In this document: piece by piece, positions 10,017-35,961 of the stretch
Layout: every line of letters begins with the position of its first letter
How positions within the stretch are numbered: position 1 is the stretch's first letter
Position numbers and translations under genes: made by a program
From: Solirubrobacteraceae bacterium
Lineage (GTDB): Bacteria; Actinomycetota; Thermoleophilia; Solirubrobacterales; Solirubrobacteraceae
NCBI GenBank assembly: GCA_016463765.1
Contig: JAEMQS010000013.1
Location: 1 to 64,000, forward strand
DNA length: 64,000 nt
Direction of reading: 5' to 3'
The notes under the pieces: generated by a model
Databases searched by the model: none
The model's input: only the letters and a program-made list of their open reading frames with translations
What the model was told of the DNA's origin: nothing

Positions 10017-10067
10017 GGGGGTGTGCGCATTGCGGTTCGTCACAGGAACCAGGATGCTCACACCCCC
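10017..10067 (-). repeat. Copy A of a 51-bp palindromic repeat (GGGGGTGTGAGCAT...ATGCGCACACCCCC on minus strand)
   Basis: Same ends and same 51-nt length as copies at 33041 and 33955. Confidence 0.85.
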
Positions 10068-32641: not shown

Positions 32642-32944
32642 TCAGGGCCCTTCGGGCAGGCCCTTCAGCGAGTACGCCCGCTCACCGGGCTTGACCATCC
32701 CGAGCCTGCGCGCCTCCTGCTCGAGCGCCTTCGGGCTCTGCAGCGCGGCCCGCCGTGCCCGCAGCTCACGGTTCTCCCGCTCCAGGGCGGTGACCTCCGC
32801 GCGCTTGGTCTTCGCCTCCTGCCACGACGACCAGTAACCGCTCAGCGGGCGGATGTAGAGCGCGAGGATGAAGAGCAGGACGAGGACGAGCGCAAGGCGC
32901 CCGACCCGGTCCCAGCGGATGCGAGAGGTGGGGACGGCGGTCAC
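32642..32944 (-). CDS. Septum formation initiator (FtsB/DivIC family)
   Basis: Single TM then coiled coil EVTALERENRELRARRAALQSPKALEQEARRLGMVKPGERAY. Confidence 0.9.
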   Translation of the reverse strand: MTAVPTSRIRWDRVGRLALVLVLLFILALYIRPLSGYWSSWQEAKTKRAEVTALERENRELRARRAALQSPKALEQEARRLGMVKPGERAYSLKGLPEGP

Positions 32945-33040
32945 AGGTCGGTCGTTCGCCGTGGATGGCGGTCTTCCTGCCGGGCTGCGTAGTTATGTCG
33001 CAGTCCTGCGCTCATGGGGTGCAGGTGGTCGTTCAGGGTC

Positions 33041-33090
33041 GGGGGTGTGAGCATTCCGCGCGCCCACAGCTCTCGCAATGCGCACACCCA
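33041..33090 (+). repeat. Copy B of the palindromic repeat, containing the GTG start of the DUF559-like ORF
   Basis: GGGGGTGTGAGCATTCCG...CGCAATGCGCACACCCA. Confidence 0.85.
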
Positions 33091-33964
33091 GGCGCGGATC
33101 GTCGATGTGTGCCGTCGGCAGCGGGGTGTGATCGAGCACGGGCAACTCGTCGAGGCAGGGCTCGGGCCGCGCGGCATAGCTGAGCGGGTCCAGGCGCTCA
33201 CCCTGTTCGTCGTCACCACCCGCGTGTACGCGCTGAGTCCGGTAATCACCGACGACGCGCTCCGGGCCGCGATGGTGCTGTCTGTGCGCGGCCGCACGAT
33301 CCTCAGCCACTGGTCGGCCGCAGAGCTGCTCCAGATGGCAGACCGGCCGTCGCAGTTCCACCACGTGACGACCACGGGATGCGCTCGGTCGCGTCCGGGG
33401 CTTGTCGTTCACCGCACGCGGGTCGAACTCCCGGCCCGCCGGGTGCGCGGGCTGCCGGTGACCGAACCTGACCGCGTGCTCCTCGACCTCGCGGTGGGTG
33501 TGCGTGGTCGGCCGCTGGAGCGCATCGTCGCGGAGACGCTGTTCCGCCGGCTCCTCACCGAGGAGGGCGTGCGCGCCGCCCCGAGCGCCTATCCCGGGCA
33601 CCCGGGCGCGAGCAACCTCGCTCTCATCAACCCTGATGCCGCCCGCAACCGTAGGACCGAGACGCCGCTTGAAGAGGAGGCGTTGACAAAGCTCGACATC
33701 CTCGGGCTCCCGCCGTTCGTCTGCCAGTACGACCTGTTCGGGCAGAGTGGCCGGCGCTACCGGGCCGACTTCTTCTGGCGCGAGTACGGCGTGCTCCTGG
33801 AGACGGACGGGCGCTCAGCGCATCAGCGCCGCATGGACTTCGAGAAGGACCGCGACCGCGACAACGACCTCCTCGCGGTCGGCCTGCGCACCATGCGGGT
33901 GACGCGTCGGCAACTGCGAGCACGCACCTTCGGCCCTCAGTTGCGGGCGACGCTGGGGGTGTGA
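33047..33964 (+). CDS. AbiEi-like N-terminal HTH + DUF559/Vsr-fold C-terminal domain protein
   Basis: IVDVCRRQRGVIEHGQLVEAGLGPRGIAERV; C-terminal YRADFFWREYGVLLETDGRSAHQRRMDFEKDRDRDNDLLAVGLRTMRVTRRQL. Confidence 0.85.
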   Translation: MSIPRAHSSRNAHTQARIVDVCRRQRGVIEHGQLVEAGLGPRGIAERVQALTLFVVTTRVYALSPVITDDALRAAMVLSVRGRTILSHWSAAELLQMADRPSQFHHVTTTGCARSRPGLVVHRTRVELPARRVRGLPVTEPDRVLLDLAVGVRGRPLERIVAETLFRRLLTEEGVRAAPSAYPGHPGASNLALINPDAARNRRTETPLEEEALTKLDILGLPPFVCQYDLFGQSGRRYRADFFWREYGVLLETDGRSAHQRRMDFEKDRDRDNDLLAVGLRTMRVTRRQLRARTFGPQLRATLGV

Positions 33965-34005
33965 GCATTGCGCGACGTCACACGTCTCGGAATGCGCACA
34001 CCCCC
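33955..34005 (+). repeat. Copy C of the 51-bp palindromic repeat, containing the TGA stop of the DUF559-like ORF
   Basis: GGGGGTGTGAGCATTGCG...CGGAATGCGCACACCCCC. Confidence 0.88.
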
Positions 34006-34019
34006 GAGCGGGGGACGCC

Positions 34020-35961
<1,942 letters not shown>

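Follow-up and report, generated by a model that had tools for sequence, protein, structure and literature searches.

The nuclease gene and its two palindromes

Positions 33041 to 34005 of the stretch analysed here (the window, 64,000 nucleotides from a Solirubrobacteraceae bacterium) are occupied by a nuclease gene of the AbiEi-DUF559 type that is bounded on each side by a 51-bp palindrome. The whole unit, termed the cassette below, lies between divIC/ftsB and eno, and a further copy of the palindrome stands alone, as a solo, elsewhere in the window. The window belongs to a Svornostia-like genome (G000), placed in that genus or very close to it within the Baekduiaceae (Actinomycetota, Thermoleophilia, Solirubrobacterales), which was compared with those of the sister species S. 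abyssi (G001, in the coordinates of the J379 chromosome), a third Svornostia (G002) and other relatives, including two genomes from another genus (G020 and G037). The features concerned are listed below.

33041-33091, + strand: palindrome copy B, overlapping the start of the nuclease gene and holding the candidate GTG start at 33047
33047-33964, + strand: AbiEi-DUF559 nuclease gene, encoding 305 aa when read from the GTG or 316 aa with the ATG at 33014 as start (open reading frame (ORF), Pfam, PADLOC AbiEi, AF2 and Foldseek)
33083-33622, + strand: AbiEi-antitoxin-like region, residues 13-192, a winged-helix DNA-binding part and a middle domain (PADLOC, Foldseek)
33755-33916, + strand: DUF559/MTES_1575 Vsr-like nuclease core, residues 237-290 (Pfam, invariant residues, Foldseek)
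33955-34005, + strand: palindrome copy C, overlapping the end of the nuclease gene and giving its TGA stop
10017-10067, + strand: palindrome copy A, a solo between a thiamine pyrophosphate (TPP)-enzyme gene and an AlkZ-like glycosylase gene
32642-32944, - strand: divIC/ftsB, the left neighbour and a landmark of the insertion site
34020-35294, - strand: eno, the right neighbour and a landmark of the insertion site

Copies B and C are each 51 bp long and 81% alike over 57 nucleotides (nt). An initial annotation, made from the sequence alone, had described palindromes of this length at both ends of the gene, the placement of the unit between divIC/ftsB and eno, and a stop codon supplied by copy C; all three descriptions are borne out, the ORF ending at 33964 with CTG GGG GTG TGA inside copy C. 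The start was likewise assigned to copy B. A GTG is indeed present there at 33047 and is the likely start, but an in-frame ATG at 33014, upstream of the palindrome, is also available in both the window genome and the sister genome. A GGGG(G)TGT element likewise contains the stop codon and a GTG at the equivalent place in three homologues, which are 86%, 47% and 45% identical.

As single strands the palindromes fold with z-scores of -3.1 (copy B), -8.6 (copy C) and -3.9 (copy A). Neither copy B nor copy C matches an intrinsic terminator (a GC-rich hairpin with a T tract after it), and the palindrome has no family match in Rfam. The cassette has divIC and eno as its neighbours, with no AbiEii toxin gene beside it.

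Fold of the encoded protein

The window protein alone scores 16.8 bits against Pfam DUF559, below the cut-off of 20.6; all eight members of its clade (the set used for Pfam and PADLOC) match this family, with a best E of 5e-7. The same eight proteins are matched by the PADLOC AbiEi models, in the window protein over residues 13-192 (E 9.8e-14). The AF2 model is of excellent quality, with a predicted local distance difference test (pLDDT) value of 95.7, and the first few residues, which are encoded by the palindrome, lie in its least ordered part. Foldseek aligns the N-terminal two-thirds of the model with an AbiEi antitoxin (6y8q, E 3.7e-5). The C-terminal part resembles PvuRts1I/AbaSI, the EDxHD homing endonuclease I-Bth0305I (3r3p, template modelling score 0.68 by target length) and Vsr (1vsr). 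These nuclease matches are singly weak (E about 0.01-0.06) but agree with one another, with Pfam and with the viral-model matches, which are to DUF559 and homing endonuclease.

The protein is therefore predicted to consist of an AbiEi antitoxin fold joined to an EDxHD/Vsr-like nuclease. The Vsr-like C-terminus of the initial annotation is retained, and its antitoxin-like helix-turn-helix is enlarged to the full AbiEi-antitoxin fold. Residues D241, E252, D254, H259, D268 and R284 are invariant in a set of 65 homologues, for which reason the nuclease is probably active. No Y1 transposase domain was matched in the protein by Pfam, PADLOC or fold comparison.

Palindrome families and their nuclease genes

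Genes of the AbiEi-DUF559 type were found in 117 of 399 genomes in a class-wide search. Their association with palindromes was measured in 60 such loci from the Solirubrobacterales (644 kb) that had been chosen blind to repeats. This sample contains 27 strong palindromes, against 2 in shuffled sequence, and 12 of the 27 (45-55 nt) are centred just upstream of a DUF559 start, at a stereotyped offset, where 0.74 would be expected (P about 2e-12); one lies at the end of a DUF559 gene. Start regions that fold with z < -3 accompany 29% of DUF559 genes and 2% of 219 control starts on the same contigs (p 9e-9), and matched repeats upstream and downstream occur at 9 of 58 DUF559 genes compared with 2 of 178 control genes. 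Many of the elements share a common plan, in which an outer stem is followed by an internal loop (CTTR/AACT), an inner stem and an apical loop that frequently holds the start codon (ATG, GTG or TTG).

Among the 11 close homologues inspected for repeats at the gene ends, 10 have palindromes or paired repeats of their own, those of L009 being eroded, and only L051 is unclear. The two outcomes that the initial annotation had named as refuting, namely repeats that are common terminators without enrichment at DUF559 genes and related genomes with the gene but no repeats, did not occur. The close homologues in G020 and G037 are bordered on both sides by tandem palindrome arrays with a period of 60 or 61 bp, each gene having a separate palindrome, and one G020 family amounts to 20 units at 8 loci, several of them mini-arrays with the same 60-bp step. 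A family with the sequence TTGATGGGCCGAAAA bounds a gene on both sides in G305 and occurs as solos in G305, G316, G383 and G405. In 1.2 Mb of S. abyssi all three DUF559 genes have palindromes, and two of the three families are also present there as solos. Each nuclease lineage thus has its own palindrome family, which replaces the single 51-mer first supposed to be the shared unit, and it is very likely that gene lineage and private palindrome form a partnership.

Some further elements were noted in these genomes. A second array in G020 (L043:17-193), of 61-bp period and built on the palindrome CGATGCG...CGCATCG, lies about 1 kb from the nuclease-flanking array, and the 60/61-bp step recurs in unrelated palindrome families. 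One DUF559 gene of G316 is interrupted by an in-frame TGA yet keeps its 55-bp start palindrome (L080:654-708), and four intact solo copies of that family are present in the same genome.

The window-type palindrome itself is restricted to two genomes. An own-genome search found seven copies in G000 (the two at the nuclease gene, copy A, and four more on other contigs), and S. abyssi has 12. The pattern is absent at up to two mismatches from 99 other relatives, G002 included, and its exact matches across the GTDB genome collection are limited to S. abyssi and one Magnetococcales metagenome-assembled genome with a different repeat; a chance origin is excluded on these grounds. The Magnetococcales element (YD0425bin7; L026:7514-7555 and L033:328-369) is a palindrome of 42 bp that shares the outer letters GGTGTGnGCATTGGCGC...GCGCCAATGCnCACACC, found on two contigs and followed each time by the same TTGCGTCAATTAGGCGCGCTGCGCCGA stretch; it looks like an unrelated family of the repetitive extragenic palindromic (REP) type.

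Copy A is kept at the same place in S. abyssi, and by blastn three solos hold the same positions in G000 and G001. Some solos lie directly upstream of gene starts and several between convergent genes (e.g. L004/L016), with neighbours that are unrelated to one another (TPP enzyme, 2,4-diacetylphloroglucinol (DAPG) hydrolase, tRNA synthetase). No DUF559 gene was seen at any solo locus examined. One solo of the same family in G000 (contig C247 near 40456, L006:1499-2050) gives the TGA stop of a gene for an AbiEii-toxin-family nucleotidyltransferase (Pfam E 9e-9); the nuclease that belongs to this palindrome bears the AbiEi antitoxin fold. S. abyssi also contains solos at 2015523, 2350244 and 2717731 that resemble the flanks of two other DUF559 genes of the window genome (L013 and L014) and have no DUF559 gene near them, possibly as orphaned copies, and a third dispersed family (GGAGCATGGCTCTAGAGCCACGCTCC) at 2186900, 2240639 and 2837214, around which the stretch read shows no DUF559 gene.

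The structure of the palindrome was examined in an alignment of 18 Svornostia copies. The outer arms (GGTGTGnGCAT / ATGCnCACACC) are invariant; the inner arms vary, and their changes are complementary. Of the stem cells, 86.4% are paired, and both sides have changed in 35 cells, compared with 22.5 +/- 3.2 in shuffles. The covariation score is 0.210 against 0.118 +/- 0.019 in shuffles (reached in 0 of 500) and falls to 0.09 or less with slid partners. Such complementary changes fit a need to fold. The conserved single mismatch described earlier near each end did not survive this comparison, the position being paired in 8 of the 18 copies and unpaired in 10, and hence unconstrained. The idea that a stem mismatch acts as a Vsr-like recognition signal was dropped because of those eight paired copies.

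Comparison of the same sites among the Svornostia genomes demonstrates several states. At the divIC-eno locus S. abyssi carries an orthologue (85-86% identical) with both palindromes at an identical 914-nt spacing, although the palindrome cores differ from those in the window. The corresponding junction of G002 has no nuclease gene and a solo palindrome, GGGGTGTGGCCCGAATCGGTCGAGATCGGACCGGTTTCGGCCACACCCCC, of a different family; at another locus the same family borders G002's own homologous gene, and it is found at six solo sites, in G002 only, so that G002 has a palindrome family of its own with at least seven copies. At a second locus the gene is present in G000 and G002 and missing from G001, where just GGGGTCGGTACCCCC remains. 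Occupied and empty alleles of a presumed target site therefore both exist, and the occurrence in G002 of a solo where G000 and G001 have palindrome, gene and palindrome supports the earlier suggestion of a discrete inserted cassette. A third locus (L011, with its equivalent in S. abyssi) has flanks that are mostly 80-93% identical, compared with 44-75% for the gene plus palindromes, and the palindromes of the two genomes belong to different families. One G002 solo abuts a stop codon at a place where S. abyssi has no palindrome, though other sequence differs there too. In S. abyssi alone, an extra gene for a predicted membrane protein stands between eno and the cassette (L020:480-1430), adjoining a perfect, terminator-like palindrome of 34 bp.

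Proposed function of the palindrome-bounded nucleases

The anatomy of the cassette, the enrichment, the lineage-specific families, the dispersed copies, the solo and cassette states, the complementary stem changes and the predicted fold with its invariant residues were all computed directly. The reading preferred here, which is judged modestly probable, is that the cassette resembles a REPtron (a REP element with its RAYT/TnpA-REP enzyme), with a nuclease that would recognise the folded palindrome and drive its spread, and a palindrome that would also control the gene. Each nuclease would possess a private palindrome of about 40-55 nt at its own start codon, often at the gene end too, with solos or arrays of 60-bp period elsewhere. 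The enzyme, probably a dimer, would recognise this palindrome when folded as a hairpin or cruciform, for instance during replication, and would nick or cut it. Repair or strand transfer could then place a copy of the palindrome, or of the entire palindrome-gene-palindrome unit, elsewhere in the DNA, with another palindrome as the easiest target, and through the copy at the start codon the protein would be able to repress itself. For I-Bth0305I, dimerisation on a target of nearly 60 bp has been reported (PMC3943268), a length comparable to that of the palindromes described here. As the nuclease is kept beside intact presumed targets it must act conditionally, and by analogy with REP elements and TnpA-REP (PMC8266576) the simplest condition would be that the palindrome is folded. 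The REP/RAYT-like cassette with a DUF559 protein first proposed for this locus is thus supported as regards enrichment, flanking and dispersal, with self-propagation, and dissemination of the palindrome by the enzyme, being inferred.

Several points weigh against this reading. Binding, cutting and movement by the nuclease, and likewise copying and autorepression, are deductions from the computed features. That palindromes persist unbroken next to an intact nuclease speaks against double-stranded DNA being cut unconditionally. There are few copies, and three solos have kept their positions in both G000 and G001, which means that any spreading is slow; about half of DUF559 genes in general have no strong start hairpin. 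The site comparisons are not perfectly clean, other genes differing at L204 and locus 2, and no target-site duplication was seen at the compared sites. Recombination between the two flanking palindromes could turn a cassette into a solo of the G002 type without the nuclease, and template switching in quasi-palindromes could produce compensatory stem changes without selection.

The chief rival, thought rather unlikely, is that the protein is a regulator and the palindromes are its operators: its AbiEi-type domain would bind the palindrome as a two-fold operator, repress its own gene and control genes next to the solos, the nuclease domain having some other conditional purpose. AbiEi antitoxins do repress their own operons by binding inverted repeats in the promoter (PMC7319586), and the AbiEi fold of the N-terminal part, the invariance of the outer arms over 18 copies and the solos just upstream of gene starts are all consistent with this. 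However, a second copy at the gene end and arrays on both sides are unlike a regulon, as are solos between convergent genes or beside such unrelated neighbours. New 51-bp palindromes at new sites require copying rather than point mutation, and the inner arms vary yet stay complementary.

That the fusion is instead a defence or toxin-antitoxin gene, acting on phages or plasmids with palindromes that control expression or mark self DNA, is considered improbable. The PADLOC AbiEi matches throughout the clade and the solo at the stop codon of an AbiEii-toxin-family gene speak for it; the divIC-eno cassette has no partner gene, defence alone does not explain the dispersed solos and the turnover of palindrome families, and searches of IMG/VR and of plasmids gave no relative. 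An origin of the cassette from phage or plasmid was rejected on the same searches (108 pattern stretches in IMG/VR, none confirmed, and no relatives in PLSDB). Control at the level of RNA only, whereby the mRNA forms a hairpin at the start codon that limits translation and may be trimmed by the nuclease, with the other copies acting as 3' stabilisers or terminators, is very improbable: the start codon in the apical loop and the recurrent internal loop would suit it, but not solos away from any such gene, the 60-bp arrays, or the lack of terminator and Rfam matches. That ordinary intergenic terminators lie beside a DUF559 gene by chance is scarcely credible since, for all the GC-rich stems and the solos between convergent genes, neither copy B nor copy C matches a terminator, the palindromes are strongly enriched at DUF559 genes relative to controls and occur at start codons, and each gene lineage has its own.

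Returning to the REPtron-like reading, comparison with known systems indicates where the cassette stands. REPtrons similarly comprise a nuclease gene flanked by short palindromes that are also dispersed in intergenic DNA, and share with it lineage-specific palindromes matched to the enzyme, small clusters and a hairpin with an interrupted stem (PMC8266576, PMC3733652). Their enzyme, however, is an HUH tyrosine transposase (Y1), whereas that of the cassette is an AbiEi fold with an EDxHD/Vsr-like nuclease; the 18 Svornostia copies have no conserved GTAG or CGTC tag, and the palindromes are longer (40-55 versus 20-40 nt), few, and overlap start and stop codons. The cassette is nearest to REPtrons by working principle but is not one by enzyme descent. 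In IS200/IS605-family insertion sequences, too, a single gene has a hairpin at each end; here there is no HUH transposase domain, and each end is a complete palindrome of a kind also found as solos.

EDxHD homing endonucleases such as I-Bth0305I share the Vsr-like nuclease core with its conserved acidic and histidine residues, a very long target and a gene that is present or absent at one site. In contrast to homing, the presumed target is not interrupted by the insertion, intact copies being present at either side of the gene and as many solos; the DNA-binding part is AbiEi-like rather than made of phage modules, and the location is intergenic, with no intron. Classical homing on duplex DNA is weakened as an explanation because intact sites coexist with the gene. 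AbiEi type IV antitoxins have the fold of the N-terminal two-thirds and inverted repeats near the gene start, but in the cassette this fold is fused to a nuclease without an adjacent AbiEii toxin gene, and palindromes are found at both ends and dispersed. V.EcoDcm (Vsr) and the DUF559/MTES_1575 nucleases belong to the same nuclease superfamily; Vsr is a mismatch-repair enzyme without repeats, and the literature searched yielded no association of either group with palindromes.

Palindromes of the REP type occur commonly in bacteria, and for some families, e.g. the CGTC REPs, no spreading enzyme is known (PMC3733652). A broader proposal, whose chances are put a little short of even, sees in the AbiEi-DUF559 nucleases a class of enzymes that disseminate palindromes and have no relation to HUH transposases. 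Each would carry and spread its own REP-like palindrome and limit itself with it at the start codon, and the partnership would be widespread across the Solirubrobacterales and possibly extend to other actinobacteria that have such genes. Searches of the open-access literature yielded no report that connects palindromes with DUF559 or Vsr-like genes; the newness rests on the pairing of enzyme and palindrome, and would be less if the operator explanation is right. The association ties a large uncharacterised nuclease family, gene by gene, to private palindromes and thereby gives AbiEi-DUF559 proteins a testable function. If the proposal is true, it would represent a second, independent enzymatic route to palindrome families, and the many matched pairs of nuclease and palindrome would be a ready set in which to study the choice of folded DNA and changes of specificity.
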